In this document: in pieces, positions 26,194-64,000 of the stretch
Layout of the letters: every line of letters begins with the position of its first letter
Position numbering within the stretch: position 1 is the first letter of the stretch
Origin: Magnolia sinica
Taxonomy: Eukaryota; Streptophyta; Magnoliopsida; Magnoliales; Magnoliaceae
NCBI RefSeq assembly: GCF_029962835.1
Contig: NC_080584.1
Span: forward strand, 81,062,862-81,126,861
Length of the DNA: 64,000 bases
Direction of reading: 5' to 3'
Translations under genes and position numbers: made by a program
The notes under the pieces: model-generated
Told to the model about the DNA's origin: nothing
Databases searched by the model: none
The model's input: the letters and a program-made list of their open reading frames with translations, nothing else

Positions 26194-28494
26194 TGTTCAC
26201 TCCCCAAGTATAGGGTTGTGATGTAGTAATAAACTTGGTGAGATCGAGGTCGAATCCCAAGGGATTGATACCTGTACGTAATGTGAAACTAACTAGAACT
26301 AATTAATTTCAAAAAACATAGCCGTCAATCCCCGGCAACGGCGCCAAAAACTTGTTCACTCCCCAAGTATAGAGTTGTGATGTAGTAATAAACTCGGTGA
26401 GACCGAGGTCGAATCCCAAGGGGCTGATACCTGTACGTAATCTGAAACTAACTAGAACTAGAACTAGACTAAGATGAAATCTAAATTAAATATAATTGAG
26501 GGAATAATGATGAATTATTTATCTAAAACTTAGAGAATTCAAAGGTAGGAAACTAAAGTGCCAAGGATCCACTTGTAACAATTGGGAAGCTATCTTGCAT
26601 TGATTCAAGGACACAACTGGAATCAGAGTCCTATCCTATCCAATTGGTAAGAAGAGATTTGTCAGATCTCTGAACTTCTCGTGGATCTAATCATCAACAA
26701 ATACGATTGGTGCAGATTTGGAAGTGATCCCGTCACCTAACCATGCCTAGGAGACTATGGCAAACAACAACAATTTACCAATCTCACAGCCAATCATGAG
26801 AGAATTGTGAAAGTTAGGAAGGGTTCCATCACTCAACCATATCCATGAGACGATGGTGAACAACAGGGTTCCCAAGTTCACAATCTCATAATGAAAAGAA
26901 TATACTCAAAGCTATTATAGATCTAATGTAATTTGAGTCACAATAAACTATTAAAAAAACTAAAAGTATTCCTTAATAATCAAACTAGAATCCATAAGAG
27001 TTCAATAATCATGAATCAAAGCAAAGCCACCTTCCTAATTACGCTACAAGCTTCACCTCTTAGCCCTAGCTAAGAGGTTTAGCCTAGCAACATGATTAGG
27101 CTAAATCCCTTAAACAAAATAAATAAAAAGAAAAAAGAAAAAGGAAAAATTCAACTCTACTCTCTCTGTCTCTCCGCTCCACGTCCAAGCTGGATCCTCT
27201 CTCCACGTTTCTCTCCCTCCTTTATAGGAAATTCCAGTTGGTGGCTGCGTGTAGAACTGGACAGCTGTTTACCACAACAGTCAGTGGTGAAAGAAATCTC
27301 TTTTGCAACAGCATGCAAACGGCGCTCATCTCGTGTGTTTGGAATAGATTTTCAGGACGATGAACGTCCCGAACTTTATTCTGACACCTAGGTTAGACTC
27401 ATGGCGTCCTGTTGCACCATGTGGGCGGTCCAGATCGTCCACCTGATCATCCCATTGATCACACAACTGTCGCAAAAATTGGACAGTGTCCGAACGCGAA
27501 AACAGAGCCTACGAAAGGGTTCTTGCGCTGTGCTGATGGTGGGGCCCATGATTGATATTTTATGAGAAATCTAGACTGTCAATTGCATTCTCCTCGAAAT
27601 TTTGGATGGGAAGGGAAAGTTTTAGATCAGATTCGATGTGACCCACGGAAGAAATCATGCTGCCACAGGTTTGGATGAAGCAAAACGATCTTTTTGTGAC
27701 CGGCACGTGCGCTTGCATTGATGTACAAGGTAAACATGGGTTCGACTATCCCGAGATCCCCTACAAGATGGACGGCTTGGATCGGACAGATGGTCCATGA
27801 TGGTGGCTCACTAGCTTTCGAAAAACTCCCCTGCGCAACTGTATGAGGAAGAAACAAAACAACAGTTGCCGTTTTTGACTCAGTCACGAGACCAACTCGT
27901 TTTGGAAGGAGATGCAGTTGCCGTGCACATCTGGTGCACTTGTGCACCAGCACACCTTGACTCAGGTGGAGTCCATGGTGATGTTTCTGAGAGATCCACT
28001 CCATCCATACGTTTTATCACCTCATTTAATGGGTTGAACCCAAGTTTGAAGCATATCCAGAAATCAAATGGGCCCAAAATCAGTGGTTTATGGGCTGATC
28101 TATCCATTGGGCCACTTCCAAAGTGATCCACTGGCTGAAATTTGACATGTACGGTTAATTTAGAGTGCTCATGCCTTATATAAAGTTTTGAGCTGATCAG
28201 ATGGTGGGAACCCTATAATCTTGAATTTTGGACATCTTTTAGGCCTGGTTAAGGTGAATGGCTGGAATTTCTCTGATCTTCGGCTTGTAAATCCTCGATC
28301 TTGGTCCCATAGAGTTCGTCCCTTGCCTTGGTGACTTTGGAGCGATAATTCCATGCTTTTAATACCCTTTTCCAGTCCATTCTTGTCAATTCACCTTGCA
28401 TCACAAACACGATTAAATTAAGCAGTTAAACAATACCATGTTCGTAAATCCAGGCAATAACTAGGGTCTAATATGTAATATTCGGCCCTCAACA
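26194..28494 (-). mobile_element. Athila-type (Ty3/gypsy) LTR unit with primer site (fossil)
   Basis: One complete LTR at 26353-28494 (TGTTGAGGGC...GTGAACA in element orientation, 2142 bp) is followed by the primer site TGGCGCCGTTGCCGGGGA, a match to the 3' end of plant tRNA-Asp as used by Athila-like elements. A short second LTR-end piece at 26194-26305 closes the unit. Identical CCAAG flanks (26189-26193 and 28495-28499) mark it as a single insertion with almost no interior. It lies inside the other Athila-type element (28500-32745). Confidence 0.7.
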
Positions 28495-28499
28495 CCAAG

Positions 28500-31400
28500 G
28501 GCATCGATCATCGTACATATAGGCATAGAAAATGGTACAGAATGGATGGGGTGGTCATCATGGTATCGATTTCGGTTATTTACGGTCACATTACGAGGGG
28601 TGTACTGTAAGGGGTTGATTGATTGAAGTGGCAAGGAATGAGTGACCAAGAATTACAGGAATTTGAGTCCTCATGTCCACGTTGGGTTGAGTATCCAAGA
28701 TAATAGAATCTACTGGGTAGTAGAATTTGTTAACCTAGACCAACACATCCTCAATTATCCCTCTCGGTACATGAACTGAGCGATCGACAAGTTGTAATGT
28801 GGTCCAGGTGGGTTTTAATTCACCTCGACCCAGTTGTTCATAGACCGAGTACGGATCAGATTTGCGCTTGCTCCTAAGGTAAGAAGTGCGTGCTCAATCC
28901 GGTAATTTCCAATTACACAAGCGATGGTTGGGCTACTAGGATATTTATATTTTTGTGGCACATCTTACTTTAGGATGACACTCACTTTTTCTGTTAAGAA
29001 GATTTTCTTTTGAATATTTTGCCGTCTTTTGGTCGTACATAAGTCTTTTAGAAATTTGGCATATGAAGGTATTTGTTTAACGGCATCTAGTAGAGGAATA
29101 TTAACCTTCACTTGTTTCAGCACCTTTAGAATATCTTGAGAGTTAGAGAGAGGTTTTGGTGTAATCAACCATTGGGGGAATGGTGCAACTAATTTACCTT
29201 GAAGTTTCGGTTCTAACTTATGTGGAGTAGTGCTAGATCTATCATGGTTGTCCTCTTCCGGGTCATTGGACTTTTCAGCCCTTATTGGAATGGTTTCGTC
29301 AATTATTTTTCCACTCCTGAGAGTGGTAGTAGACTTAGCTTGCTCCATTTGATTTAAAGAGCTCGGGTCGATGACTTCATATTGTTGTTTTGGATTGGGA
29401 AGGGATTGAGTTGAAAGGCTTTATTTTTTCCTAATCGTATTTTGTCTGAAGCCCTTGTATGGCCTTTGTAAGGTCTTAAAAGGCTTGTAGCATACCTTGA
29501 TTAAAAAGCTCCTGATTTTTAAGATGTTTTTGGACCGAATCCTCTTGAAGTTTTCCTTGATTTAGAATTTGATTAGGGTATCCTTGAGGAGTAGTAATTT
29601 GTCTATTCCTTAAATTGAAATTTGGATGATTTCTTCAACTAGGATTGTAAGTATTGGAGGTGGGTCCTTTGAAAGACCTCTGGTAATTGTTTACGGCATT
29701 CGATTGCTCATTCAGAATTTCTTGAAATGCAGGTATTGTTGGATAATTTTCAATTGTATGAATATTGCAAGCACAAATACCGCAAATAGTTTTCTTAACC
29801 TTATCCTTTTTAAGTTCCATGGCCTCAAGTTTCCTTGTGAGATTAGCCACTTTAGCATTTATATCGTCTTCCTCTTTCAAAAGATATATTCCGCCCCTCT
29901 CTTTTGATTGAGTAGGCTTAGAAGTGGTGCTAGGTTTTGGGGAGATGTCCCATGATTGTGCATTCTCAGCAAGTCTATCCAAATAATCCCACACATCGTC
30001 AACATTTTTATTCATAAATTCCCCATTGCACATTATCTCGACCAATTGGCGCATGAAGGATGTCAGTCCATCATAGAAGAAGTTTGTGATGCACCACGTT
30101 TTAAAACCGTGTTGTGGGTATGAACTAACAATATCCTTGAACCGCTCCCAACATTGAAAGAATGTTTCTTCTTCCTTTTAGGCAAAGTTCATGATTGACT
30201 TTCTAAGGGTGTTTGTTTTATAGTATGAAAAGAATTTCTTGATGAACTCCCTTGTCATGTCATTCCATCTACCAATAGATCGTGGATGTAGTGAATGTAA
30301 CCACATCTTAGCTTTTTCTTTCAAAGAAAAGGGAAAGAGTTTCAGCCTGACTGTGTCTTCAGTCACATTAGGAAAGTATAAAGTGGTTAGGATCTCATCA
30401 AACTATTTCAAGTGTAAATATAGATTTTCAGATTCAAGTTCGTGAAATTTTGGGAGTTGGATCACACTTGGCTTGATATACATGTTTCTTGTGTTTTCTG
30501 GAAAAACCATGTATGAAGGTGTGCTCACCGCCGCCGGTTGTAAATAATCTCGTAAAGTACAAGGTGGGGGTGCTTGATGCACCTCGTTTTCATCATGAAT
30601 TTCCTCAACCCTAGGTTGAGGTGGATTTGGAAGTTGGTTAACCGGTTGATTGATAGCTATAACTTCAGTTAACCCTGAGGATATCTGGTGGTGTCTAATC
30701 CCATGATGGATAGATAACCCCTCAACAAATCCTCCTTCACTCAAGAGATGTCAAGTGTTATCACGGACCCACTTGGGCATGAAACACTCTCAGCTCCCAA
30801 GTAACTAAGCTAACCTTAACCTAAGAGAGAGAAAACTAAAGCAATTAAGAAATTTAGAAATAGAAAGAGAGATTTAGAAAGAAGTTAGCAAATTAGAAGT
30901 TTCTTTATTAAGATCATGCAAAACAGAATGGCAAGTTACTTTCCAAAAACAAATTAAGAAAATTCCTAACCTAGAAATAGAAAGATAAGTTACTTTCTAA
31001 AAATAATTCAGAAAAAACCCTAACTTAAAAATAAAAAGTAAATAAACCCTAATCTTAACCTAATTCCAAATCTAATTAAATTTAGAAAAACGTAATCGTT
31101 ACTCCCCGACAACGGTGCCAAAAACTTGTTCAGAACCCCATGTGTAGGGTTGCGATGTAGTAATAATCTTGGTGAGACTGAGGTCGAATCCACAGGGACT
31201 AATCTCGTGTGTATTCTGAAAGTTACTAGAATCAAAACTAAAAGAAGATCTAAATCTAAATTGGGAATAAAATAAAGTAATTGTGAAGTATTTAATTAGA
31301 AACTTAAGAATTTAAAAGTGGGAAGTGAGGTTTTCAGGGATCCACTTGCAGCTATTAGGATATTTCCTCATTTGATTCAAGGAACACAATTGGAATTGAA

Positions 31401-32745
31401 GTCTTATCCTATTCAATTGAAAGATATATCAATAAACTCAGATCTAAACTTTCATTGACCTAATTCTCAACAGATGAGAGTTGTGAGGATTGGAAGTGAT
31501 TTCATCATCAAACCATGCCCTAGAGATAATGACAAATAACAGGATATACCAATCCATAACCACCATAGGAGAATTGTGAAGATTTGAAGAGATTCCATCA
31601 CCCAACCATGTCCAAAGGACGATGGTGAACAACAGGATTTACTATCTTCACAATCTCAATTCAGGAAAAGAAGATACTCAAAGCAATCACAGATCCATTG
31701 TAATTTGAATCACAACAAACCATTAAAAACTTAAAGTATTACTTAAATATCAAATTAGAATCAAAGAAGTTCAACAAGAACAAGAATCAAATAAGAAAAA
31801 TATCTCAATCATGCTACAAGCTTTACCCCTTAGCCCTAGTTAAGGGATTTAGCCGACCATAGACATGATTGGATATAAAATCCTTAAAGAAAGTATTAAA
31901 AACTAGGAAGAAAGGAAGAAGAAACTCTTGAATAACGGCTCCACCCCTTTGCTCTACTCCTCAAAACCCTAAATAGCCCAAAAATACTTAGGAAATCCAT
32001 ATTTATAGGCTAGTTTCCGCAAAATTGCAAAATCGCCTCAAATTTACGTAGTACGCATAACTCTGCATAACGCCTTCGATGTCGTCGAAGGGGTTTGAAT
32101 CCGAAAGTTGCGCATTTTCTCCTTTCGCACTATGTAGATCTTCGTGTCATCAAACCTTCCTTCGATGTCATCAAGAAGTCCTTCGATGCCATCGAAGGGT
32201 CTTTGATTCATTGAAAAAGTGTCCAAAACAATCCATCGAGTTACTTTAATTTCTTCAATAAATTCGATGCCATCGAACAGTCTTCGATGTCATCGAGCAT
32301 CTTTTTCGAGTCATCGATCATGTCTTCAGTTTATCGAGAATTGCATCCAATATGTTTAACAACCAACTTGATTTTCCTGTGAAAATTCGATGCCATCGAG
32401 CTGTATTCGATGTCATCAAATGATGGCTTCGATGTCATCGAACACCGATCAATGACATAGATTGTGAAGTGAATTTTAATACTTTGCTCTTTCAACCTCC
32501 TTCCTTTTCTATTTGGTTTTCTTGGATCTTGGGGTCTTAAAATTTTTCATCTTGGTCTCCAAAGATCCGTTCTTTGCTTTTAGCAATTCTTAAGCCTTAA
32601 ATCCATGCTTTTAGCATTCTTTTCAATCCAAGCTCTTAAGCTCACATTGCAATACAAACATGTATAAAATATACCATTAAGCATTATCATGTTCATAAAA
32701 CCAAGATATAAATAGGGGAAAATATACAATATTTGAGTCTCAACA
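28500..32745 (-). mobile_element. Athila-type Ty3/gypsy element, 5' half (fossil, arm 1)
   Basis: The minus-strand element is broken and incomplete. The 5' LTR is 31127-32745 (TGTTGAGACTC...TCTGAACA, 1619 bp), followed by a tRNA-Asp-type primer site (TGGCACCGTTGTCGGGGA) next to 31126. A gag region lies at about 30.75-28.97 kb with Athila-like phrases (HQAPPPCTLRDYLQPA, SIGRWNDMTREFIKKFF), and an aspartic-protease-like region at about 28.95-28.65 kb. The LTR U3 (about 32.07-32.45 kb) carries about ten copies of a TCGATGNCATCGA palindrome. The 3' portion is interrupted by the LTR unit at 26194-28494, and no matching 3' LTR was found. Confidence 0.8.
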
Positions 32746-32753
32746 ATGAGTCT

Positions 32754-33250
32754 CTACCTAAACAGATAGATCTCTTTGAATCCTTCTGTAGTGGGCCGAG
32801 CGTCTCTCCTTCTGCCAAGCAGGCCTACCTTAACATCTTCAGACCACTTAGCCAAGGATTGGGCCACCGCTCTCTCTGTTAAACCAAAGGTCTCCTTATC
32901 ACCTAATAACAGGGTCAGGGATGGTGGATCTTGGGAAGTCATCAACGGTAGATCCCAGTCATCCGACTCCGAATCTCCATTGAAGGCATTAGGTTCATCC
33001 CATTCATTCGACATATCGTACATTTTCGGTTGGAAGCTCAACAAAAAGTAGAAATAAGGATGAAAAATGAAAGAGAGGGGAATAGAGAAGAACTGAGGAA
33101 GCAGAGGTCGCCGGGGTAGAAGATTTCCGACTTATCGGAAATCGCTAAGTCTGAGAACTTGAGAAGAGGCAATGGGAGCAAATAACTATGATCGTTAGGG
33201 TTCTCCCCTCCTTATAGGTAGCTCGGCGGCATGCATTAATTGTCTACATT
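32754..33250 (-). other. Gene-like segment with promoter, family unknown
   Basis: On the minus strand a TATA-like CCTTATAGG region (CTATAAGGAGGGGAGAACCC on that strand, near 33216) leads through a CT-rich leader to a start near 33023 and a short acidic product of about 89 codons (YDMSNEWDEPNAFNGDSESD, then AVAQSLAKWSEDVKVGLLG). A counterpart lies at 55120-55390 in arm 2 and is less well preserved. The product matches no family I know. It could be a captured gene, or a promoter and small frame of a virus-like element. The 5' LTR of the Athila-type element abuts its 3' end. Confidence 0.3.
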
Positions 33251-34520
33251 TAATGTAGCAACCGAAGAGGCTCTTCGGCATGTGCTCGTGGCCACATGGA
33301 GACTTGCCCTTCGATGGACGACCCGACTCTCCAGGCAACCACTACGTGTCAGCACCCCATAGGTCAGAAACTGAAAAGGTGCCTTGTCAGCGCATGCCGC
33401 CTCGAGCGCGTCGTACCATCATTGCAAATCTATTTCAATCTTCGTGTATATTGCCCTTCTCTGCATTAATGATGAACTGACTCAACCTTCCATACACAGA
33501 TATCATCAATCCGACCTCACTACACCGACTTACTTTCCGAGCTTACGTAGTCAGCTAAGAAGTAGAGGGGTTATTGTTATGGGTAAAAATGAAATGGTGA
33601 GAAAGGTGGGGTTAGCTCAGACATTTGTATTTGTCCCATGGCCGGCCAATATGAATCTTGACCAAGGAGCTCCTCAACGGCCAAACAATGGTGGTGAAAA
33701 GACCTGTTAGAGGATGAAGTATTCTCGTTTCCTTTGACAGAAGACAAGAGCTGACCACTTTTACGGTCCCATCCATTTCCGAGCTCCTGTAACCAGATTT
33801 GTCTATGATTTACTAAGGCCAGTCCGAACTGGTTGTTCGAGCAAAAATCCCATGCACGGGGCTGTGCAGTTTGGAACTTGTAACGAAGTTCCTACATCGT
33901 ATGATAAGATGAAAAGGATGGTCATCCCCGATGTCATCTATACTTCGTCAAGGAGGGAGTTCGGTCTCAGTGCTCGGACATAACCTTCACAGGCAGATCT
34001 ACCATAGGCCATAGCCCGCATGAGAGACTAATTCAAATTGTTCTTCATCAGTACGATTGTGAAGATAAGTTTGGATGCTCGACCTCGGTCTCCCATCATA
34101 TGTGTTTTCCGACCCCAACCACACGGAGATCTCATCAAAGAGATCCATCTGAGATCTCTAACGAAGATTTAAGAAGATAACCATGACACGCTCGAAGATA
34201 GATTCCCTCTATAATACGCACCTACCAAGTAGAGAAATCACCATCTACGTCACCTTCACCGAGCAACTATAAACAAGAACCTATCCTATGGTAAATGGTA
34301 TGCATCAAAAGACAAGGTCTCATTTCCCTTCTTTGTGTGCAGGTGTTTGGAGGTTCAAGGAGGGTTAACCAGATTTCTACATCAACAATTACCTCATTTC
34401 AACCTGACTTGGACTCAAATTCTTAATTGGTCTTACTCAGGCCATTTTTAAATGGGTACGACCTAGATAATATCCAACCTAAATTTGGGAAGAAAAAGTA
34501 GTTAATTAAGCAAGTGTTTT
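33251..34520. other. Unassigned segment in arm 1
   Basis: Sequence of more even composition than its surroundings, present inverted at about 53.64-54.88 kb in arm 2. Short frames differ between the arms and carry no recognisable domain. Features include GTGGCCACATGG near 33289 and GTAGTCAGCT near 33548. It may be part of the same unit as 32754-33250. Confidence 0.35.
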
Positions 34521-34529
34521 TTTTTTTTT

Positions 34530-35360
34530 TTTTTCCCCTTGTGATTTGGATTACAAAGGAGACGTGGGCCCAAAAATGATGTATTTATTACCTTTCATCC
34601 ATTTGGAGAGATCATTTTAGATCTTTCACTCAAAATAAGTCATTGCAAAGGTTAAGTAGACCACACCACAAATAGCATTGGGACAATGATTCTCACTGGT
34701 AATGCATTCATAGGGCCCACCATAATATTTATTTTCCATCTAATCTCTTCATAATGTCACACAGACATGGATGAAGAGGAAAAACAAATATCATATTGAT
34801 CCAAAATTTCCGTGGCACTCAAAAGGGTTTCAATGGTAGGCATTCAATCCCCCACTGCTTTTTACATGGTAGTCCACTTGATTTTTGGATCTGTCTTATT
34901 TTTAGGCTCAAGACTTACTACAAGCTCACCATGTGGACGGACAGTTTCGATATAACTCATACCTCATGATGGCACCCACATAACTTGGTGACGTCAACCC
35001 ACCAGCCAAGTCGGTGGTGGCTGGTACACCAGCCAATCAGCTTCCGTATACAAGTAAAAAGCCTATTTTTCACTATGATTGCTTGGCAGTCCAGGTTGTG
35101 GGTCCAATTGTAATATGTGTCCAGTTTTTTCAGCTTATTTTAGGGCATGACAGATCCAAAGGTGTAGTGGACCGCATAACAATATAGTAGGAAAATGACG
35201 TCTACTGTTGAAACTTTCCCGAGGGCACATGATCCAAAACTTTTGTACCCCAATAAACTTTTAACGGTGAGAATTCAATACCCCCTGTTTTAGTGTGTGG
35301 TCGACTTGAAGTTTGGGCCTGCCTTGCTATAAAATGATATGGAAAAATGAATGGACGGCG
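34530..35360. repeat. Fold-back repeats at the inner end of arm 1
   Basis: A first unit runs from GACGTGGGCCCAAAAATG (34562) to GGCACCCACATAAC near 34972, followed by CACCAGCC-type terminal text. A second unit starts near 35090 and continues past the arm boundary at 35244 to about 35350. In arm 2 only the arm-side half of this second unit is present. Confidence 0.6.
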
Positions 35361-35399
35361 ACCAGTAACGACGTGGGAGGGGACGACAGACATATGCCC

Positions 35400-35650
35400 T
35401 TGACAAATGGAGACGGATTGGCTACTCCCCTTGACACCAGCCCCGTGGCTGGTGGTCGGTGCTCTGTGGGCCATCATAATGTATTTGTTTCATCCGCTCC
35501 GGTCAATTTTTAAGGATCATTTTAGGATTGATACAAAAAATGATAGGGATATAAATCTCAGGTGGACCACCGTTGAAACTTTCTTGGAGCTGACCATGAT
35601 GTTTACATGGCATCCAAACCGTTCATAGGTTTATTACCACTCAGATAAAT
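35400..35650. repeat. Partial fold-back element, CACCAGCC subtype
   Basis: Starts ACGGATTGGCTACTCCCC with CACCAGCCCCGTGGCTGGTG just inside, then the GGTCGGTGCTCTGTGGGCC and TTTCATCC blocks. The right arm is missing. Confidence 0.6.
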
Positions 35651-35671
35651 TGTAGGATCCGCCTGGACTGG

Positions 35672-36104
35672 GCAGGGCTCTGTGGGGCCCACCGTGATTT
35701 AAGTATTTTATCTACGCCGTTAATCATTTTTTGTCGTATCATTTTAATATATGAGCCAAAAAATAGGTAGATACAAGGATTAAGTGGATCACATAGTGGG
35801 GATTGAATATCCACCATTAAAACTTTTTGAGAGCTGGAGAAGTTTTGGATGAAGCTGATATTTGTTTTTTTCACTTCATCCACGTTACATGACCATATGA
35901 ATAGGTTGGATGGTATAAAAACACCACGGTGGCCTTAAAAAGGTTTCAAAGGTGGGTGTATTATCACTGCAGCTTCCTTTGGTGTGGTCCACCGGAGCTG
36001 TAGACCTGCTTAATTTTTAGCATTAGTCCTTAAAATAATCTGATAAAAGCAATGAGTGACGTGGATAAAATACTTACCTCACGGTGGGCCACATAGAGCC
36101 CTGC
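35672..36104. repeat. Fold-back element, complete
   Basis: The left end GCAGGGCTCTGTGGGGCCCA pairs with the right end GGGCCACATAGAGCCCTGC. The next inner blocks (AAGTATTTTAT against ATAAAATACTT) also pair. Non-coding hairpin. Confidence 0.75.
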
Positions 36105-36299
36105 CGGGAAGGATTACTTGGGTAGGAGGCAATCCACGTCCTCATTCCCTACAAAACTTTCCCCGGGGGTTTAATAACAACTCTTTCATGTTATGACTCA
36201 CCTTATTTTTAGATTTCTGACCTACCGCAGTGGAGTGAGTGGATTTGTTTTAGATTCCCGACCTATTGTGGTCTATCACGCAGATAGGGCTGTTCCCCG

Positions 36300-36772
36300 C
36301 AGCCAGCCAATGGCTAGTGGTCGGTGCTCTGTGGGCCCCAACATGATGTATATGTTTCATCCATGCCGTCTGCTCATTCTTCCATATCATTTTATGGTAT
36401 GAACCCAAAAATGAGGTTGATACAAATCTTAAGTTGATCACATAGTGTTGATTGAACTCCCACCATTAAAAACTTCCTGGGGCCACAAAAGTTTTGGATC
36501 AAATTGATATATATTTTTTTCCTTCTGTATAACCTAATTAACAGGTTAGATTTCAAATAAGCATTACAGTGGGCCCTAAGAGTTTTTTAATGGTGGACAT
36601 GCAATCACTACTGTTTTCCCATGGTGTTGTGCACCTGGGATTTAGGTATACCTAATTTTTGAGATAATAACTTAAAATTATTTTTCAAAATAGATGGGCG
36701 ACTTGGATAAAACACATACATCATGGTAGGGTCCACATAGCACCAACCACTAGCCACCTGGCTGGTGGCGTC
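36300..36772. repeat. Fold-back element, CACCAGCC subtype
   Basis: The left end (CAGCCAGCCAATGGCTAGTG, GGTCGGTGCTCTGTGGGCCC) pairs with the right end (GGGTCCACATAGCACCAACC, ACTAGCCACCTGGCTGGTG). Confidence 0.7.
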
Positions 36773-36836
36773 GTCGCTAGCCAAACCGCGCCCGAGATAT
36801 CCCGGGTCACCAGGCAGGCAATCCGGAATCCGAATC

Positions 36837-37352
36837 GGACGCGGATTTCCTGCGAAAGCCTTCCACAGGAAGTTCCTGCGCTGGAAAATTAGGTGGGACC
36901 CATTGTGATGTTTATGAGAAATCCTCCCCGTCCATTGGTTTTGTGAGTTCATTTTAGGCTATGTTATCAAAAATGAACCGTATCTAAAGCTCAAGTGAGC
37001 CGAAAACGTGATAATTAAATTTTCACAGTTGAAATAATTGTGGAGCCACAGAAATTTTGATTCATGTTAATATTTCTGTTTTCAGTTCATCTCAGTAGGA
37101 ATGACATTATCAACGGTATAGATGGCATCTAAACATCGCTGTTGAACTAGGAAGGTTTTAACGGTACGAATTTCCCTAACCACATTTTCCCTTAATACGG
37201 CTCACTCAAGCTTTGGGTGCGGTTCATTTTCGACGACATGTACTAAAATGAACTTACAAAACGTATCTAACAAACATCACAGTGGCCCCACCTAATTTCC
37301 AAGCGCAGGAACTTCTTGCAAAGGCTTGCGCAGGAACTTCCTGCAAATCCGC
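36837..37352. repeat. Fold-back element, GGACGCGGATTTCC subtype
   Basis: The left end is GGACGCGGATTTCCTGCG with AGGAAGTTCCTGCG inside. The right end carries CGCAGGAACTTCCTGCAAAT and CCGC. Inner arms hold GTTTATGAGAAATCC-type text. The same subtype occurs at 46208-46732. Confidence 0.7.
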
Positions 37353-37360
37353 ACTGGAAG

Positions 37361-37708
37361 GACGCCGGAGTGCGTCCCACCCCCGTTTCTGTGGGCCACG
37401 TTGATGTAAGTATTTTATCCACCTCTCGCTTCTATCAGACCGTTTTAAGTTATCATCCTAACAATGAAGTAGGTCAAACCACACCAAAGGAAGCTGCAGT
37501 GATGGTTTGATCCGAAACTTCTCCTGCTCTCATGAACTTTTTAATTGTGGAAGTTCAATCCCACTTTGTGGTCCATTGGAGCTGTGGACCTACCTCATTT
37601 TAGGATGATAATTTAAAACAGTCTGATAGAAGCGATGAACGGCGTGGATAAAATACTTACATCGTGGTGGGCCTCACAGAGGTAGGACGCAATCCGCGTC
37701 CGCATTGG
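37361..37708. repeat. Fold-back element immediately upstream of the F-box gene
   Basis: The left arm (GTGGGCCACGTTGATGTAAG, TATTTTATCCACC, CGCTTCTATCAGAC) is mirrored on the right (GTCTGATAGAAGCG, GGATAAAATA, CTTACATCGTGGTGGGCC), and the right end has the outer text AGGACGCAATCCGCGTCC. Its right end is less than 100 bp from the F-box start codon. Confidence 0.75.
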
Positions 37709-37794
37709 AAACGGTCTGTCTTCTCCCATTAAAAGGCTCGTTGGTTTCCTTTTCTTGCAAGTTTCACTTTCGTTTTTCGTCTTTTCCTTTGATA

Positions 37795-39030: not shown

Positions 39031-39296
39031 TGCTCCTGATGCATTTAGTAGGATGTAATGTATTCAATCCTCAAGATGGAATATGCAATTTTGCAAAATA
39101 TTCCCACAAAGACGAAACATGCTATGTTTATAATGAAGTTATAGAAAAGATCAGTTTTTGAAAATAGTGGTTAAATTGTAATTTTCATGTTACCCAAGCA
39201 CACCTTAATGAAAACATTTTATGATAAATATATACTTTCTACTTTTATGCATTTTCTTCGCATGAATACGAACCAATTCATGAGGAAAGCTCAGCA

Positions 39297-39360
39297 CATA
39301 AATCAGGCCTAAGCCTCGGTATTCAGCCCATAAATCAGGCCTAAGCCTCGGCTTTGGGGC
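39297..39360. repeat. Two tandem 32-bp units
   Basis: CATAAATCAGGCCTAAGCCT with its downstream text occurs twice in direct succession, with small differences at the end of the second unit. Confidence 0.8.
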
Positions 39361-39399
39361 CATGTGGAAAGTATAGGAAATGAATGAAATTTTGAGATC

Positions 39400-39760: not shown

Positions 39761-39889
39761 TACTTCTAGTTAATGAATGAATTTTATATTTTTATCTAGT
39801 CATTCATCATCACATTTATTTTCATGCTACAAAATTTCATTCCATCTGAGTTACAAAAAAAAGTATGAACAGTGGGGCCTATACTTAAT

Positions 39890-51200: not shown

Positions 51201-52889
51201 CATATTGCAGAACCTCTGATCTAAAAAGAATTAAGTTAGGACCAAGAGCTATTAAGTGCGCCTTCGTAGGGTATGCACAAAATAGTAAAGCTCATAGACT
51301 TCTAGACATAGAGTCTAATACAATAATAGAATCAAGTGATGTTGAGTTCTTTGAAAACTCACTATCATTGGAGTCAAAGGATAATGAAATCCAAACTCCT
51401 AATAGAGAACCAGATAGCACAGCTCCACAGATAGTGGAAACTCCTATTAAGCCTCGTAGGAGTCAAAGGACAAGAATAGAGAAGAGTCTAGGAAATGACT
51501 ATATAGACTCACAACGTGTCATTTTCCATCTTGTAGAGGAGAGAGAAAATGTTATAAGAAAAATACCTATAGTAATGATTATAGAAGATGATCCTAAAAC
51601 ATATAAAGAGGCCATATCCTCTAGAGACTCAGCTTTCTAGAAAGAAGCTATAAACGATGAAATGGAATCTATACTATCAAATCAAACATGGGAACTAATT
51701 AACTTACCTCCATGTTCTAGACCAATAGGTTGTAAGTGGGTATTTAGGAAGAAATATCACACTGATGAGACTATCCAAACCTTTAAAGCTCGACTAGTAG
51801 CTAAGGGTTTTAGATAAAAAGAAGCGATAGATTACTTTGACACATACTCTCTTGTAACTAGGATAACATCCATTAAGATATTATTTGCGTTAGCTTCCAT
51901 ACATCATCTTCACATCCACCAAATGGATGTAAAGACCGCATTCCTAAATGGTGACCTCAACGAGGAGGTATATATGGAACAACCTGAAGGATTCGTTTTA
52001 CCAGGAAATGAAAACAAAGTATGTAGATTAGTCAAATCATTATAAGGATTAAAATAAGCACCAAAACAATGGCATGAGAAGTTTGATTCTAAAATATTAT
52101 CTCATGATTTTATACATAATGTAGCTGATAAATGCATATATTCTAAAGTAGATGGTAGTTACATCGTTATTATTTGTTTATATGTTGATGACATGTTAAT
52201 AATAAGTAATAAAATGGAAGGTGTGACTGAAATAAAGAGGTTTCTATCTTCCGTATTTAAAATAAAGGATCCTGGACAAGTTGATACCATTCTTGGTATC
52301 AAAGTTAAAAAACATTGTAGGGGTTATGCTTTGTATCAATCTCATTATATTGAGAAGATACTAAACAAGTTTAACCAGCTAAATATAAAAGAAGCAAAAA
52401 CACTATTTGATCCAAGTATCAAACTAAAAGAAAATATTGGAAGAATAGTTGCACAATTAGAATATGCGAGTGCTATAAGGAGTCTTATATATGCTATGCA
52501 ATGCACTAGACCTGATATCGCATATGCTATAAGTAAACTGAGTAGGTTTACTAGTAACCCCAGTACTAAACACTGGAATGCAATAAGTAGAGTCCTTGGT
52601 TACTTAAAAGCAACCAAAGACTTAGGATTATTTTATTCAGAGTTTCCTGCCATATTGGAAGGATATACCGATGCGAGATGGATATCGAGTGTAGGGGACA
52701 ACAAGTCTACTACAGAGTGGATATTCACCCTAGGAGTTGCAACTGTATCTTAGGGATCCAAGAAACAGACTTGCATAATGCATTCGATTATGGAGTCTGA
52801 ATTTATAGCCCTGGCTGCAACAGGTAAAGAGGCTAAGTAGCTAAGGGATCTTCTATTAGAAATTTCTTTCTGTGTAAAGCCTATATCGG
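48235..52889 (+). mobile_element. Ty1/copia element, 3' end missing (fossil)
   Basis: The 5' LTR is 48235-49190 (TGTAGAGGCG...TTCCAACA, 956 bp) with a TATA-like AGTATAAATAGAGGG near 48410 and two tandem 33-bp units in its U3 (about 48278-48343). Parts in order: gag about 49.2-50.1 kb (DGTNFTRWQDKMKFLL, a CHVCGKTGHYT zinc knuckle near 49.99 kb), protease and integrase about 50.1-51.5 kb, reverse transcriptase about 51.65-52.35 kb ([22 protein letters not shown]), and RNase H to 52.88 kb. It is broken in roughly ten or more places and has no 3' LTR, because inverted-repeat arm 2 begins at 52890 within its RNase H region. The clade is not resolved. Confidence 0.85.
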
Positions 52890-55398
52890 AAAAGTTTTGG
52901 ATCATGTGCCCTCGGGAAAGTTTCAACAGTAGACGTCATTTTCCTACTATATTGTTATGCGGTCCACTAGACCTTTGGATCTGCCACTTTTTAGGCTCAT
53001 GCCTTAAAATAAGCTGAAAAAACTGGACACATATTACAATTGGACCCATAACCTGGACTGCCAAGCAATCATAATGAAAAATATATAGGCTTTTTACTTG
53101 TATACGGAAGCTGATTGGCTGGTGTACCAGCCACCACCGACTTAGCTTGTGGGTTGACTTCACCAAGTTATGTGGGTGCCATCATGAGGTATGAGTTATA
53201 TCCAAACTGTCCGTCCACATGGTGAGCCCGTAGTAAGTCTTGAGCCTAAAAATAAGACAGATCCAAAAATCAAGTGGACTACCATGTAAAAAGCAGTGGG
53301 GGATTGAATGCCTACCATTGAAACCCTTTTGAGTGCCACGGAAATTTTGGATCAATATGATATTTGTTTTTCCTCTTCATCCAGGTCTGTGTGACATTAT
53401 GAACAGATTAGATGGAAAATAAATATTATGGTGGGCCCTATGAATGCATTACCAGTGAGAATCATTGTCCCAATGTTATTTGTGGTGTGGTCTACTTAAC
53501 CTTTGCAATGACTTTTTTTGGGTGAAAGATCTAAAATGATCTCTCCAAATGGATGAAAGGTAATAAATACATCATTTTTGGGCCCACGTCTCCTTTGTAA
53601 TCCAAATCACAAGGGAAAAAAAAAACACTTGCTTAATTAACTACTTTTTCTTCCCAAATGTAGGTCAGATATTATCTAGGTCGTACCCATTTAAAAATGG
53701 CCTGAGTAAGACCCATTAAGAATTTGAGTCCAAGTCAGGTTGAAATGAGGTAATTGTTGATGTAGAAATCTGGTTAACCCTCCTTGAACCTCCAAACACC
53801 TGCACACAAAGAAGGGAAATGAGACCCTGTCTTTTGGTGCATACCATTCACCGTAGGATAGGTTCTTGTTTATAGTCGCTCGGTGAAGGCGACGTAGATG
53901 GTGATTTCCCTACTTGGTAGGTGCGTATTATAGAAAGAATCTATCTTCGAGCATGTCACGGTTATCTTCTTAAATCTTCGTTAGAGATCTCAGATGGATC
54001 TCTTTGATGAGACCTCCGAGTGGTTGGGGTCGGAAAACACATATGATGGGAGACCGAGGTCGAGCATCCAAACTTATCTTCACAATCGTACTGATGAAGA
54101 ACAATTTGAATTAGTCTCTCATGTGGGCTATGGCCTATGGTAGATCTGCCTGTGAAGGTTATGTCCGAGCACTGAGACCGAACTCCCTTCCTTGACGAAG
54201 TATGGATGACATCGAGTATGACCATCTTCTTCATCTTATCATACGGTGTAGGGACTTCGTTACAAGTTCCGAACTGCACAGCCCCGTGCATGAGATTTTT
54301 GCTCGAACAACCAGTTCAGACTGGCCTTAGTAAATCATAGACAAATCTCGTTGCAGGAGCTCGGAAATGAATGGGACCGTAAAAGTGGTCAGCTCTTGTC
54401 TTCTGTCAAAGGAAACGAGAATACTTCATCCTCTAACAGGTCTTTTCACCACCATTGTTTGGCCGTTGAGGATCTCCTCGGTCAAGATTCATATTGGCCG
54501 ACCATGGGACAAATACAAATGTCTGAGCTAACCCCACCTTTCTCACCATTTCATTTTTACCCATAACAATAACCCCTCTACTTCCGAGCTGACTACGTAA
54601 GCTCGGGAAGTAAGTCGGTGTAGTGAGGTCGGATTGATGATATCTGTGTATGGAAGGTTGAGTCAGTTCATCATTAATGCAGAGAAGGGCAATATATGCG
54701 AAGATCGAAATAGATTTGCAATGGTGGTACGATGTGCTCGAGGCGACATGCGTTGACAAGGCACCTTTTCAGTTTCCAACCTATGGGGTGCTGACACGTA
54801 GTGGTTGCCTGGAGAGTCGGGTCGTCCATCGAAGGGGAAGTCTCCATGTGGCCACGAGCACATGGCGAAGAGCCTCTTCGGTTGCTGCATTAAATGTAGA
54901 CAATTAATGCATGCCGTCGAGCTACCTATAAGGAGGGGAGAACCCTAACGATCACAGTTATTTGCTCCCATTGCCTCTTCTCAAGTTCCCAGACTTAGCG
55001 ATTTCCGATAAGTCAGAAATCTTCTACCCCGGTGACCTCTGCTTCCTCAGTTCTTCTCTATTCCCCTCTCTTTCATTTTTCATCCTTATTTCTACTTTTT
55101 GTTGAGCTTCCAACCGAAAATGTACGATATGTCGAATGAATGGGATGAACCTAATGCCTTGAATGGAGATTCGGAGTCGGATGACTGGGATATACAGTTG
55201 ATGACTTCCCAAGATCCACCATCCCCGACCCTGTTATTAGGTGATAAGGAGACCTCTGGTTTAACAGAGTGAGCGGTGGCCCAATCCTTGGCTAAGTGGT
55301 CTGAAGATGTTAAGGTAGGCCTGCCTTGGCAGAAGGAGAGACGCTCGGCCCACTACAGAAGGATTCAAAGAGATCTATCTATTTAGGTAGAGACTCAT

Positions 55399-58300
55399 TG
55401 TTGAGACTCAAATATTGCATATTTTTCCCTATTTATATCTTGGTTTTATGAACATGATAATGCTTAATGGTATATTTTATACATGTTTGTGTTGCAATGT
55501 GAGCTTAAGAGCTTGGATTGAAAAGAATGTTAAAAGCATGGATTTAAGGCTTAAGAATTGCTAAAAGTAAAGAATGGATCTTTGGAGACCAAGATGGAAA
55601 ATTTAAAGACCCCAAGATTCAAGAAAACCAAATAGAAAAGGAAGGAGGTCGGAAGAGCAAAGTATTGAAATTCACTTCACAATCTATGTCATTGATCGGT
55701 GTTCGATGACATCGAAGCCATCATTTGATGACATCGAATACAGCTCGATGGCATCGAATTTTCACAGGAAAATCAAGTTGGTTGTTAAACATATTGGATG
55801 CAATTCTCGATAAACCGAAGACATGATCGATGACTCGAAAAAGATGCTTGATGACATCGAATTTATTGAAGAAATTAAAGAAACTCATTGGATTGTTTTG
55901 GACACTTTTTCAATGGATCAAAGACCCTTGGATGGCATCGAAGGACTTCTTGATGACATCGAAGGAAGGTTTGATGACACAAAGACCTACATAGTGCGAA
56001 AGGAGAAAATGCGCAACTTCCGGATTCAAACCCCTTCAACGACATCGAAGGCGTTACGCAGAGTTATGCGTACTGCGTAAATTTGAGGCGATTTTGCGAT
56101 TTTGTGAAAACTAGCCTATAAATATGGGTTTCCTAAGTATTTTTGGGCTATTTAGGGTTTTAAGGAGTAGAGCAAAGGGGTGGAGCCGTCATTCAAGAGT
56201 TTCTTCTTCCTTTCTTCCTAGTTTTTAATGCTTTCTTTAAGGATTTTATATCCAATCATGTCTATGGTCGGCTAAATCCCTTAGCTAGGGCTAAGGGGTA
56301 AAGCTTGTATTATGATTGAGATATTTTTCTTATTTGATTCTTGTTCTTATTGAACTTCTTTGATTCTAATTTGATATTTAAGGAATACTTTAAGTTTTTA
56401 ATGATTTGTTGTGATTCAAATTACAATGGATCTGTGATTGCTTTGAGTATCTTCTTTTCTTGAATTGAGATTGTGAAGATAGTAAATCCTGTTGTTCACC
56501 ATCGTCCTTTGGACATGGTTAAGTGATGGAATCTCTTCAAATCTTCACAATTCTCCTATGGTGGTTATGGATTGGTATATCTTGTTATTTGCTATTATCT
56601 CTAGGGCATGGTTTGATGATAAAATCACTTCCAATCCTCACAACTCTCATATATTGAGAATTAGGTCAATGAAAGTTTAGATCTGAGTTTATTGATATAT
56701 CTTTTAATTGAATAAGATAAGACTTCAATTCCAATTGTGTTCCTTGAATCAAATGAGGAAATATCCTAATAGCCGCAAGTGGATCCTTGGAAACCTCAGT
56801 TCCCACTTTTAAATTCTTAAGTTTCTAATTAAATACTTCACAATTACTTTATTTTATTCCCAATTTAGATTTAGATCTTCTTCTAGTTTTGATTCTAGTA
56901 ACTTTCAGAATATACACAAGATTAGTACCTGTGGATTCGACCTCTGTCTCACTAAGATTATTACTACATCGCAACCCTACACATGGGGTTCTGAACAAGT
57001 TTTTGGCACCATTGTCGGGGAGTAACGATTGCATTTTTCTAAATTTAATTAGATTTGGAATTAGGTTAAGATTAGGGTTTATTTACTTTTTATTTTTAAG
57101 TTAGGATTTTTTCTGAATTATTTTTAGAAACTAACTTATCTTTCTATTTCTAGGTTAGGAATTTTCTTAATTTGTTTTTGGAAAGTAACTTGCTATTCTG
57201 TTTTGCATGATCTTAATATAGAAACTTCCAATTTGCTAACTTCTTTCTAAATCTCTCTCTTTCTATTTCTAGATTTCTTAATTGCTTTAGTTTTCTCTCT
57301 CTTAGGTTAAGGTTAGCTTAGTTACTTGGGGGCTGAGAGTGTTTCATGCCTAAGTGGGTCCGTGATAATACTTGACATCTCTTGAGTGAAGGAGGATTAG
57401 TTGAGGGGTTATCTATCCATCACGGGATTAGACACCACCAGATATCCTCTGGGTTAACTGAAGTTATAGCTGTCAATCAACCGGTTAACCAACTTCCAAA
57501 TCCACCTCAACCTAGGGTTGAGGAAATTCAGGATGAAAACAAGGTGCATCAAGCACCCCCACCTTGTACTTTACAAGATTATTTACATCCGGCGGGGGTG
57601 AGCACACCTTCATGCATGGTTTTTTCAGAAAATATGGGAAACATGGATATCAAGTCAAGTGTGATCCAACTCCTTCTAAAATTTCATGGACTTGAATTTG
57701 AAAATCTATATTTACACTCGAAAGAGTTTGATGAGATCATAACCACTTTATACTTTCCTAATGTGACTGAGGACACAGTCAGGCTGAAATGCTTTCCCTT
57801 TTCTTTGAAAGAAAAAGCTAAGACGTAGTTACATTCACTACGTCCACGATCTATTGGTAGATGGAATGATATGACGAGGGAGTTCATAAAGAAATTCTTT
57901 TCATACCATAAAACAAACACCCTCAGAAAGTCAATCATGAACTTTGTCCAAAAGGAAGAAGAAACATTCTTTCAATGTTGGGAGCGGTTCAAGGATATTG
58001 TCAATTCATACCCACAACACGATTTTAAAACGTGGTGCATCACAAACTTCTTCTATGATAGACTAACATCCTTCATGCGCCAATTGGTCGAGATAATGTG
58101 CAATGGGGAATTTATGAATAAAAATGTTGACGATGTGTGGGATTATTTAGATAGACTTGCTAAGAACGCACAATCATGGGACATCTCCTCAAAACTTAGC
58201 ACCACTTCTAAGCCTACTTAATCAAAAGAGAGGGGCGGAATATATCTTCTGAAAGAGGAAGACGATATAAATGCTAAAGTGGCTAATCTCACAAGGAAAC

Positions 58301-59647
58301 TTGAGGCCTTGAAACTTAAAAAGGATAAGGTTAAGAAAACTATTTGCGGTATTTGTGCTTGCAATATTCATACAATTGAAAATTATCCAACAATACCTGC
58401 ATTTCAAGAAATTCTGAATGAGCAATCAAATGCCGTAAACAATTACCAGAGGTCTTTCAAAGGACCCACCTCTAATACTTACAATCCTAGTTGGAGAAAT
58501 CATTCAAATTTCAATTTGAGGAATGGACAAACTGCTACTCCTCAAGGATACCCTAATCAAATTCTAAATCAAGGAAAACCTCAAGAGGATTCGGTCCTAA
58601 AACATCTTAAAAATCAGGAGCTTTTTAATCAAGGTATACTACAAGCATTTTAAGACCTTACAAAGGCCATACAAGGGCATTAGACAAAATACGATTGGGA
58701 AAAAATAAAGCCTTTTAACTCAATCCCTTCCCAATCCAAAACAACAATATGAAGTCATCGACCCAAGCTCTTCAAATCAAATGGAGCAAGCTAAGTCTAT
58801 TACCACTCTCAGGAGTGGAAAAACAATTGACGAAACCATTCCAATAAGGGCTGAAAAGTCCAATGACCCGGAAGAGGACAACCATGATAGATCTAGCACT
58901 ACTCCACATAAGTTAGAACCGAAACTTCAAGGCAAACTAGTTGCACCATTCCCCCAACGGTTGATTACACCAAAACCTCTCTCTAACTCTCAGGATACTC
59001 TAAAGGTGCTAAAACAAGTGAAGGTTAATATTCCTCTACTAGATGCCGTTAAACAAATACCTTCATATGCCAAATTTCTAAAAGACTTATATACAACCAA
59101 AAGACGGCAAAATATTCAAAAGAAAATCTTCTTAACAGAAAAAGTGAGTGTCATCCTAAAGCAAGATGTGCCACAAAAATATAAATATCCTAGTAGCCCA
59201 ACCATCGCTTGTGTAATTGGAAATTACCGAATTGAGCACACACTTCTTACCTTAGGAGCAAGCGTAAATCTGATCCATACTCAGTCTATGAACAACTGCG
59301 TCGAGGTGAATTAAAACCCACCTGGACTACATTAACTTGTCGATCGCTCAGTTCATGTACCGAGAGGGATAATTGAGGATGTGTTGGTCTAGGTTGACAA
59401 ATTCAACTACCCAGTATGTAATACCTGATCCAGCCTATAAGTACGACCAATTGGTTAGTAAATGAGACTCACCTTCTGAAATAAAACCCAGTAATGCCTG
59501 CATGTACAATTCAAATATTCAAAAGAACCCCTTATAGTACACCCCTCATAATGCGACTGTAAATAACCGAAATTGATACTATGATGACCACCCCATCCAT
59601 TCTGTACCATTTTCTATGCCTATGTGTACGATGATCGATGCCCTTGG
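55399..59647 (+). mobile_element. Athila-type Ty3/gypsy element, 5' half (fossil, arm 2)
   Basis: Duplicate of 28500-32745 in opposite orientation. The 5' LTR is 55399-56997 (1599 bp), the primer site TGGCACCATTGTCGGGGA is at 57004-57021, the gag region lies at about 57.4-59.15 kb and the protease-like region at about 59.15-59.4 kb. The U3 palindromes are at about 55.68-56.05 kb. Broken in several places. It is followed directly by an LTR unit, as in arm 1. Confidence 0.8.
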
Positions 59648-62600
59648 TGTTGAGGGCCAAATATTGCATATTAGACCCCAGTTATTGCCTGGATTTACGA
59701 ACATGGTATTGTTTAACGGTTTAATTTAATCGTGTTTGTGATGCAAGGTGAATTGACAAGAATAGACTGAAAAAGGGTATTAAAAGTATGAAATTATTAC
59801 TCCAAAGTCACCAAGGCAAGGGACAGACTCTATGGGACCAAGATCAAGGATTTACAAGCTAAAGATCAGAGAAATTCCAGCCATTCACCTTAACCAGGCC
59901 TAAAAGATATCCAAAATTCAAGATTATAGGGTTCCCACCATCTGATCAGCTCAAAACTTTATACAAGGCATGAACACTCTAAATTAACCGTACATGTCAA
60001 ATTTCAGCCAATGGATCCCTTTGGAAGTAGCCCAACGGACAGATCAGCCCATAAACCGCTGATTTTGAGCCCATTTGATTTCTAGATATGCTTCAATCTT
60101 AGGTTCAACCCATTAAATGAGGTGATAAAATGTATGGATGGAGTGGATCTCTCGGAAACATCACCCTGGACTCCACCTGAGTCAGGGTGTGCATGGTGCA
60201 CAAGTGCACCAGATGTGCACGGCAACTGCATCTCCTTCCAAAACAGGTCGGTCCTGTGACGGAGTCAAAAACTGCAACTGTCGTTTTATTTCTTCTGCAT
60301 ACAGTTGCGCAGGGGAGTTTTTCGGAAGCTGGTGGGCCACCATCATGGACCATATGTCCGATCCAAGCCGTCCATCTTGTAGAGGATCTCGGGATAGTCG
60401 AACCCATGTTTACCTCGTACATCAATGCAAGCGCACGTGCCGGTCACAAAAAGACCATTTTGCTTCATCCAAACCTATGGCAGCATGATTTCTTCCGTGG
60501 GTCACACCGAATCTGATCTAAAACTGTCCCTTCCCATCCAAAATTTCGAGGAGAATGGAATTGACGATCTAGATTTCTCATAAAATATCAATCATGGGCC
60601 CCACCATCAGCACAACACAAGAGCCCTTTCGCAGGCTCTGTTTTCGCGTTCAGACAGTCTCCAATTTTTGTGGCAGTTGTGCGATCAATGGGATGATCAG
60701 GTGGACAATCTGGACCGTCCACATGGTGCAACAAGATGCCATGAGTCTAGCCTAGGTGTCAGAATAAAGTTCGGGACGTTCACCGTCCTGAAAATCTATT
60801 CCAAACACACGAGATGAGCGCCGTTTGCATGCTGTTGCAGAAGAGATTTCTTTCACCACTGACTGTTGTGGTAAACAGCTGTCTAGTTCTACACGCAGCC
60901 ACCAACTAGAATTTCCTATAAAGGAGGGAGAGAAACGTGGAGAGAGGATCCAAGCTTGGACGTGGAGCAGAGAGACAGAGAGAATAGAGTTGTATTTTTC
61001 CTTTTTCTTTTTTCTTTTTGTTTGTTTTGTTTAAGGGATTTAGCCTAATCATGTTGCTAGGCTAAACCACTTAGCTAGGGTTAAGAGGTGAAGCTTGTAG
61101 CGTAATTAGGAAGGTGGCTTTGCTTTAATTCATGATTATTGAACTCTTATGGATTCTAGTTTAATTATTAAGGAATACTTTTAGTTTTTTTAATGGTTTA
61201 TTGTGACTCAAATTACATTAGATCTGCAATAGCTTTGAGTATGTTCTTTTCATTATGAGATTGTGAACTTGGGAACCCTATTGTTCACTATCGTCTCATG
61301 GGTATGGTTGGGTGATGGAACCCTTCCTAACTTTCACAATTCTCTCATGATTGGCTGTGAGATTGGTAAATTATTGTTGTTTGCCATAGTCTCCTGGGCA
61401 TGGTTAGGTGACGGGATCACTTCCAAATCTGCACCAATTGTATCTGTTGATGATTAGATCCACGAGAAGTTCAGAGATCTGACAAATCTCTTCTTACCAA
61501 TTGGATAGGATAGGACTCTGATTCCAGTTGTGTCCTTGAATCAATGCAAGGTAGCTTCCCAATTGTTACAAGTGGATCCTTGGCACTCTAGTTTCCTACC
61601 TTTGAATTCTCTACGTTTTAAATAAATAATTCATCATTATTCCCTCAATTATATTTAATTTAGATTTCATCTTAGTGTAATTCTAGTTCTAGTTAGTTTC
61701 AGATTACGTACAGGTATCTGTGTTGAGGGTCAAATATTGCATATCAGACCCATTTATTACATAGATTTACACACATGATACCGCTTAATGGCTTGATTAA
61801 TCGTGTTTATAATGCAGAGTGTATGTACGAGCCTGGACCGAAAAGGGTGCTTAAAGCATGGACTTAACACTCTAATGACACCAAAGCATGGGACGGACTC
61901 CAGAGACCAAAGATCAACAGAATTACACATCATGGACCCAAGAAAATCAAGGAATTGAAGCTCAAGTGGCCCGAAAAGTGTACAGAATGCAAGATCATAG
62001 GGTTCCCACCATCTGATCAGTTCGAAACTTCATACGTGGCCTGAGGACCATAAATAAACCATACATGTAAAATTTCAGCTCCTGGATCACTGTGGAAGTG
62101 GCCCAACGGACAGATCAGCCCCTTTAATCATTATGTGGGCCCCGCCTGATATCTGGATATACTCCAATTTTGGTCTCAACGCCTTAAACTACGTGTCAAA
62201 ATAGATGGATGGAGCAGATTTCTTACAAGCATCACCATGGGACCCACACATGCAGTGCACGTGCAAGGTGCACAAGTGCACCGGACGAGCATAAAAAATA
62301 AGGAAGTCGGTCAGCAGGCGCTGACCGACTCAAACTCGAACTCGTCACTTACGCAAACAGCGTAACGCTGTCCGGCTTGCGGTTGGGTGTAGTGGGCCAC
62401 CATCTTGATTCGGCGGTCCAATCGAGACCGTCCATTGTGTGCGTAGGTGGGGTATTTACCTCACCAAGGCGGCCTTTTGAGACCATGTAAAATATTACAG
62501 AATCCTGACCGTTAAAGGCATGATGAACGGTGGAATGGAAGGTATTGTGGGCCGCATAGAATTTGGTCCAAAAGTAGTGCTTCCCACCTGATTTTTCGAG

Positions 62601-64000
62601 TAGAACGCAGTGGACAGATTGGATTTTCCAAAAAGACAGTGAAGTGGGACCCACCATCGTCACAGCGTCAATGACGCTACCCTGTTTTCGCAACCAGAAG
62701 CTGTCCGGTTTTTGCGGCGGATCCTGTACTCGTGGGAGCGATCGGACGGCTGATCCGAGCCGTTCATCATGTAGGTCTGCCAAAAATCTTCCAAAGGATG
62801 TTGTCCTTTTGGAAGGAAAGCAAAGAAGAAGAAGAGGGGAAGACTCCGAGTTTGGCTGCTGTGCGTGAAGAACGTTTCCGCAACCAACTCGTCTGCGGAC
62901 TCCGGCCTTCCGCACAACCTCCTGCTCTATATGAGGAAAAGAGGGACGACAGTTCTGAAGGAGTTTTTTGGTAGTAGGCAGCCGAGAGTCAGGGAGCAGG
63001 GAACGTGAAGGTGCTGGGCTTGGTTTTGGGCGTTCAATGAAAAGAAGAGAAACAGGGAGGGAAAGGGAGCAGAAGCTTTGCTGCTGGACGTTGGCTGGAT
63101 AAAGTGTTGGACGGTGAATCTGGGAGTTTGGCAGGGAAGCTTGAGGTGGGCGTCAGCAAAGGCAGAGGTTTCTTTTTCTTCTTGTTTTCTTCTTGTTTTC
63201 TTTTCTTCTTATTTGTATTTTAATTTATTTATTTTTTCCAGCCCATCCATGTCCGGCTGAACCTCTTAGCTAGGGCTAAGAGGTGAAGCTTGTAGCCTGA
63301 TGGGAGAGATGATGCTTGTGCCTTTTGATTAGATTGAAGAAATTTTTGATTTAATTTTATGGGAATATTTTTAGTTTTTAATGGCATGTTGTGACTGAAA
63401 TTACAATGGGCTTGCAATGGCTTTGAATATTTCTTTCTCTTATTTTGATTATAATGTCAGGAAGCCCTGATGTTCACCATCGTCTCCTGGGCATGGTTGG
63501 ATGTCGGTACCCTTCCTAACCTTCATAATCATTTGATTGGTTGGTGATTAGTTTAAATTCTATTATTTGCTCTGTCTCCTGGGCATGGTTTGATGATGGA
63601 ATCCATTCTGATTCAAATACCTTTCAGCCCTTTAAAGTTATATCAGAGGAAATTCAATTTAATTCCCAAGATTCCTGATGCAGGCATAAGATCTCCCTAA
63701 TCTCTACAAGTGGATCCTCTGAATCCCTAGTTTCCTTCCTCTGAATTCCTTAAATTTTTAGATAATTATTCCACAATTATTCCTTAAAAATCTCTTTGGT
63801 TAGATCACATCTTAGTCTAGTTCTAGTTCTACCTGGTTTCAGATAACGTACAGGTATCAGTCCCTGTGGATTCGACCTCGGTCTTACCGAGTTTATTACT
63901 ACATCACAACCCTATACTTGGGGAGTGAACAATCAGCCCCTTGGGATTCGACCTCGGTCTCACCGAGTTTATTACTACATCACAACTCTACACTTGGGGA
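59648..64000 (+). mobile_element. Athila-type LTR unit, arm 2, interrupted (fossil)
   Basis: Counterpart of the LTR at 26353-28494. It covers 59648-61720, is split by a solo LTR, and resumes at about 63932 to the window edge. It is preceded by CCTTGG as in arm 1. Its terminal bases and any primer site lie beyond the window. Confidence 0.75.
61721..63931 (+). mobile_element. Solo LTR, Athila type, nested
   Basis: A 2211-bp unit from TGTTGAGGGTC to GAGTGAACA with nearly matching flanks ATCTG (61716-61720) and ATCAG (63932-63936), inserted in a related LTR. Its start and end resemble the host LTR but the middle is clearly diverged, so it is a cousin family and not a tandem copy. Arm 1 lacks it. 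Confidence 0.8.

Follow-up and report, generated by a model that had tools for sequence, protein, structure and literature searches.

The 64,000 bases of Magnolia DNA analysed here, referred to as the window (39% G+C, without N), hold a pair of long inverted arms around a 17.6-kb spacer. We regard these arms as an old inverted segmental duplication, most likely produced by repair of a break at or beside a copia-type retroelement with the left locus as template—a reading to which we assign a probability of about 0.58. The left arm lies at 26360..35244 on the minus strand and spans at least 8,885 bp by self-BLAST and global alignment; the right arm, at 52890..64000 on the plus strand, repeats the left-arm content in inverted orientation, carries a later insertion of 2.2 kb, and extends past the end of the window. 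The arms were previously given as ~9 kb long; a length of 8.9 kb is confirmed as a minimum, with the outer end of the repeat lying outside the window.

Self-BLAST aligns 28711-35244 with 59416-52890 at 95.6% identity over 6,558 columns (E = 0.0), 26426-28616 with 61718-59526 at 94.8% (E = 0.0), and 26360-26428 with 64000-63932 at 98.6%, each in inverted orientation. Global alignment of left 26429-35244 against right 61718-52890, leaving out 113 columns around 28600-28712 that take in a divergent tract, gives 347 mismatches over 8,672 sites and a K2P of 0.041; 16 indel events separate the arms, the divergent tract's own counted. These are two collinear, highly identical copies in opposite orientation, the arrangement that defines an inverted segmental duplication. 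Both kinds of alignment thus bear out the inverted repeat reported at these positions in a preliminary description of this DNA, with adjustments of detail. Its identity of ~97%, drawn from a 190-bp sample, captured the likeness of the arms and becomes ~96% over all sites compared. Its coordinate sum of ~88,140 at each checkpoint holds through the arm (88,124 to 88,151 in the global alignment), with the exception of the pair 26360/64000, which sums to 90,360; this pair falls off the main diagonal because the right arm contains a 2.2-kb solo LTR at 61721-63931.

From the inner edge outwards, the arms consist of a partial fold-back-family repeat (35244-35155 in the left arm, its innermost part), 3.2 kb of non-LTR sequence (31906..35154, minus strand; 96.7% identical between arms), element 1 and element 2. 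No Pfam domain was found in the scanned open frames of the non-LTR stretch. Element 1 comprises the remains of a gag-bearing LTR element. Its left-arm copy, at 28713..31905 on the minus strand, has an LTR end at ~31126, an LTR cut short at ~31905 and a PBS-like site at 31120-31103; the right-arm copy, at approximately 56219..59415 on the plus strand, has a PBS at 57004-57021 (three mismatches to the pattern) and a gag ORF at 57829-58218, and it is in this copy that the gag domain PF03732 was detected (E 1.4e-10). Element 2 is an internally deleted LTR retroelement, located in the left arm at 26194..28494 on the minus strand, whose internal region is nearly all lost: a 5' LTR of 2,142 bp (28494-26353, TGTTGAGG...GTGAACA) is followed by a PBS at 26346-26329 and a leftover 3' LTR end of 108 bp (26301-26194), and the 5-bp target duplication CCAAG sits at 26189-26193 and 28495-28499. 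The TG...CA form of the LTR, the PBS after the 5' LTR and the target duplication identify element 2 as an LTR retrotransposon. In the right arm it occupies 59648..61720 on the plus strand, is split by the solo LTR and resumes at 63932, with the remainder beyond the window.

The sequence CTTGG adjoins element 2 in both arms, marking one target site. The arms therefore represent one duplication, not separate insertions, because they share both the nested stack and the target site of element 2; several unrelated units and the junctions between them recur together, as is expected of descent as one block, and the shared stack was duplicated as a single block. The preliminary description had likewise proposed inverted copying of a segment and judged independent insertions insufficient, and this stands on the common target site and on the truncated older LTR present in both arms; the shared non-LTR DNA and partial fold-back repeat that it noted were also recovered, the former now measured at 3.2 kb. 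The LTRs of the two stacked elements, LTR_a and LTR_b, differ by a K2P of 0.41, roughly tenfold the divergence between the arms; the stacked elements are therefore distinct, not recent copies of each other. We also considered LTR_a and LTR_b as the LTR pair of one element and rejected this on that divergence and on the PBS and target duplication that LTR_a has of its own.

The solo LTR found only in the right arm (61721..63931, plus strand; 2,211 bp, TGTTGAGG...GTGAACA) provides a relative order of events. It is flanked by ATCTG and ATCAG, which differ at one of five bases, and the left arm has a single empty site, ATCAG. Because of this empty site the insertion is placed after the copying, and we read the solo LTR as having arrived once the arms had separated. 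It is related to the arm's own LTR but distinct from it, with 64.5% identity to the left-arm copy and 62.9% to the right-arm copy. A 267-codon open frame without a Pfam match lies within it (62352-63152, minus strand).

The arms have decayed in the manner typical of silenced DNA. Transitions far outnumber transversions among the arm mismatches (283 versus 64), and with the divergent tract included in the counts, mismatches fall on 91 of 490 CpG sites (18.6%) and on 17.2% of 435 CHG sites, versus 2.9% of 7,860 other sites. Transitions rich in CpG and CHG are the pattern expected from methylated, unselected DNA. Together with the retroelement and F-box domains, the excess of CHG mismatches suggests a plant nuclear origin. 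Divergence is somewhat unequal along the arms: K2P is 0.053 in LTR_a, 0.043 in the gag region, 0.037 in LTR_b and 0.034 in the 3.2-kb stretch, and the extremes are the 108 bp adjoining element 2 (0.059) and the 90 bp at the edge (0.011). Counted per 100 bp, mismatches show overdispersion (1.41 versus 0.96, with 1.41 reached in 2 of 2,000 permutations), and clustering of CpG sites may lie behind both this and the unequal blocks. The age is given as a range: with assumed substitution rates per site and year of 1.3e-8, 6.5e-9 and 1.5e-9, a K2P of 0.041 translates into about 1.6, 3.2 or 13.8 million years, respectively.

Gene conversion between the arms, which the preliminary description had suspected from a short tract differing wholesale between them, finds no footing in the alignment. 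The longest identical run measures 154 bp, where permutation gave a mean of 157, and no long near-identical tracts of the kind that mark a palindrome kept by conversion occur in the arm alignment; inter-arm conversion was rejected on these grounds. The tract itself is real: ~90 bp at ~28617-28705 (left) and ~59525-59436 (right) are entirely unlike in arms otherwise 96% identical. It does not favour inter-arm conversion, because conversion between the arms would raise their likeness and the tract is less alike. Searches of the rest of the window with either version turned up no significant relative (best E 0.17); a locus beyond the window could have donated the tract by conversion.

The direction of copying can be read from the inner junctions. 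A fold-back-family repeat crosses the left inner edge (35244/35245) uncut, at 35155..35309 on the minus strand, and the same repeat is cut at the right inner edge, at 52890..52979 on the plus strand. Across the left edge it stays in register with copies at 47744-47662, 36451-36501 and 17374-17421 (75–85% identity; E 2e-6 to 2e-8 against the window and 2e-9 to 3e-12 pairwise), and further into the arm it also matches 47570-47508 after a gap; at 52890, the 15 last bases of the pre-gap stretch are all that remains. At E 1e-3, the first 100 bp of spacer beside the right edge match only themselves in the window, and the 100 bp beside the left edge match three other places, one of which keeps the register of the fold-back copies. 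Among 200 random 100-base pieces used as a control, 67 matched only themselves and 51 had four or more matches; repeat matches are common in the window, and the junction argument therefore rests on register across the edge. Because the repeat is whole at the left inner junction and cut at the right, we take the left for the ancestral junction and the right for the derived one. The inner junction is the one feature that gives the direction of copying, and in any past flip the inner junctions would have moved along with the spacer.

The spacer (35245..52889, 17.6 kb, no strand assigned) contains an F-box ORF and two fold-back clusters at ~35.2-37.7 and ~44.6-47.8 kb. By self-BLAST, a 1-kb stretch of one cluster (35245-37700) matches the other (44600-48000) in inverted orientation at 76%; each has many internal inverted pairs, and more copies of the repeat occur near 4 and 17 kb. 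Of the two genes previously proposed for the spacer, the F-box locus is upheld by an ORF at 37639-39027 on the plus strand (PF00646, E 1e-8). The SRR1-like locus is without Pfam support: ORFs 48022-48462 and 48477-48788 have no Pfam match at E up to 10, and none of 91 short ORFs, a set that took in 48477-48788 and 43 others from the spacer, matched Pfam at 0.01, in a scan that could overlook an intron-split gene of short exons.

At the right end of the spacer lies a copia-type retroelement (49455..52750, plus strand) with gag, Pol_BBD, SH3 and RVT_2 domains. Its last domain, RVT_2, stops near 52390, about 500 bp short of the right arm edge; the frame is open to 52750 and continues beyond it with stops up to the edge. 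The stretch between the last domain and the edge putatively holds RNase H, which the searches below did not confirm, and copia sequence presumably continues to the arm edge at 52890. Neither 52391-52750 nor 52754-52837 matched Pfam at E up to 10, and 52391-52750 gave ten weak matches against PDB (best E 0.13), to cytochrome b-c1 subunits and something else besides, all of which we judged to be chance. The right arm edge likely interrupts the copia element. The 5' LTR of this element could not be placed, because the copia PBS pattern (up to two mismatches) matched five times, none near 49 kb, with 4.0 expected by chance. Two RNase H-tail motifs, used without a positive control to look for the copia remainder, had no match in the window.

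The origin that we favour would begin at the left locus, with nested, dead LTR retroelements and 3.2 kb of additional sequence. A break at the copia-type element, either within it or next to it and 17.6 kb from that locus, would then have been repaired using the left locus as an ectopic template, copying at least 8.9 kb of it in reverse, either by synthesis-dependent strand annealing or by break-induced replication with template switching. The inner end of the copy would thereby have been placed beside the copia-type element; both arms would afterwards have decayed neutrally, and a related LTR element would later have landed in the right arm and been reduced to a solo LTR. The repair route and the position of the copy inside the copia element are both points that we infer, and we judge the copy, at 8.9 kb or more, to be long by the standards of templated filler.

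The same inner picture would follow from an inversion through staggered breaks, in which the spacer flipped together with one arm copy and the long staggered ends, once filled in, became an inverted duplicate on each side. This too yields one ancestral and one new inner junction, as found here, and passages of PMC5080602 report inverted duplications at the breakpoints of inverted arrangements in Drosophila subobscura, while PMC12368964 describes them as the mark of end-joining inversions. However, such an inversion predicts a new junction and the copia remainder to the left of the left arm, where the locus appears ancestral at least to 26189, with the target duplication of element 2 intact; moreover, the duplications expected in PMC12368964 are short and non-repetitive, and the arms here are ~9 kb and repeat-rich. 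We therefore consider the inversion unlikely, though a contender of some weight. An assembly or haplotype error that joined two loci or haplotypes in inverted order is improbable: the arms differ by 4%, their mismatches are enriched at CpG and CHG sites and one of them has a private solo LTR, so that long reads should distinguish them, and the spacer sides of the two inner joins have no shared homology. Retroelement sequence makes up much of the arm, which would suit a composite transposable element inserted twice, independently and in opposite orientations, but the inner arm ends do not look like termini with target duplications of their own. The inner end instead falls inside a fold-back repeat that is continuous on the left and cut on the right, unlike an element terminus, and on this ground two insertions of a composite element were rejected; element 2 occupies the same target site in both arms, and the divergence between LTR_a and LTR_b far exceeds that between the arms. 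We hold this origin to be very improbable. Apart from how the arms arose, they could act today as a live inversion switch, with crossing-over flipping the 17.6-kb spacer and its F-box gene, both orientations segregating in the species and the neighbourhood of the gene altered; we think this very improbable.

Elsewhere in the window, self-BLAST found a direct duplication of ~87% identity (10684-13677 and 18848-21772, 8.1–8.2 kb apart), with weaker matches extending to ~15.5 and 23.0 kb. An ORF at 14050-14811 (minus strand) encodes a Tf2-1-like SH3 domain (PF24626, E 1.2e-8) and is probably a further retroelement remnant. ARAGORN found no tRNA gene.

Inverted repeats comparable to this one are already in print for both plants and insects, as excerpts of PMC7465354 and PMC1952172 document. 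The former describes, in the sections concerned, inverted repeats in the sex-determination region of Populus trichocarpa with arms 90–95% identical, and contrasts them with palindromes of Salix purpurea, whose ~20-kb arms are held above 99.5% by gene conversion. The Magnolia arms resemble those of Populus as plant inverted repeats with imperfectly identical arms; however, according to the same sections of PMC7465354, the Populus arms reach at most 3.8 kb, carry pieces of a single gene family, and undergo transcription with small RNAs as a possible product, whereas the arms here, known from their sequence alone, hold dead retroelements. Among insects, the low-copy repeats of inversion 2Rj of Anopheles gambiae have 5.3-kb inverted arms around a 4-kb spacer and are built of degraded class I and II elements; PMC1952172 judges them not to be a transposon and reads them as segmental duplications. 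Kilobase-long inverted arms made of degraded elements are common to both cases, but the 14.6-kb Anopheles module is present at both inversion breakpoints in that account (PMC1952172), whereas a single sequence here reveals one pair. The staggered-break duplicates of Drosophila subobscura are similar in that inverted copies flank a segment; they accompany an inversion in the portion of PMC5080602 concerned, whereas one sequence here reveals only the duplicates. A further parallel is break repair in cereals, where parts of PMC3445842 and PMC4423477 describe filler DNA taken from ectopic templates and coupled with transposon activity. In both settings a block is copied from elsewhere into a break; unlike the cereal filler in those parts of PMC3445842 and PMC4423477, the source here lies 17.6 kb away, the copy is inverted and its far end is outside the window.

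No pointer to a function of the inverted repeat was found in this analysis, and the locus is best seen as ordinary genome reshuffling. Its class of mechanism is already known, and what it contributes is a further case, not a principle—a readable case of an ageing retroelement stack duplicated as a block. If the spacer occurred in both orientations, the locus would allow the instability of inverted repeats to be tested beside a plant gene.
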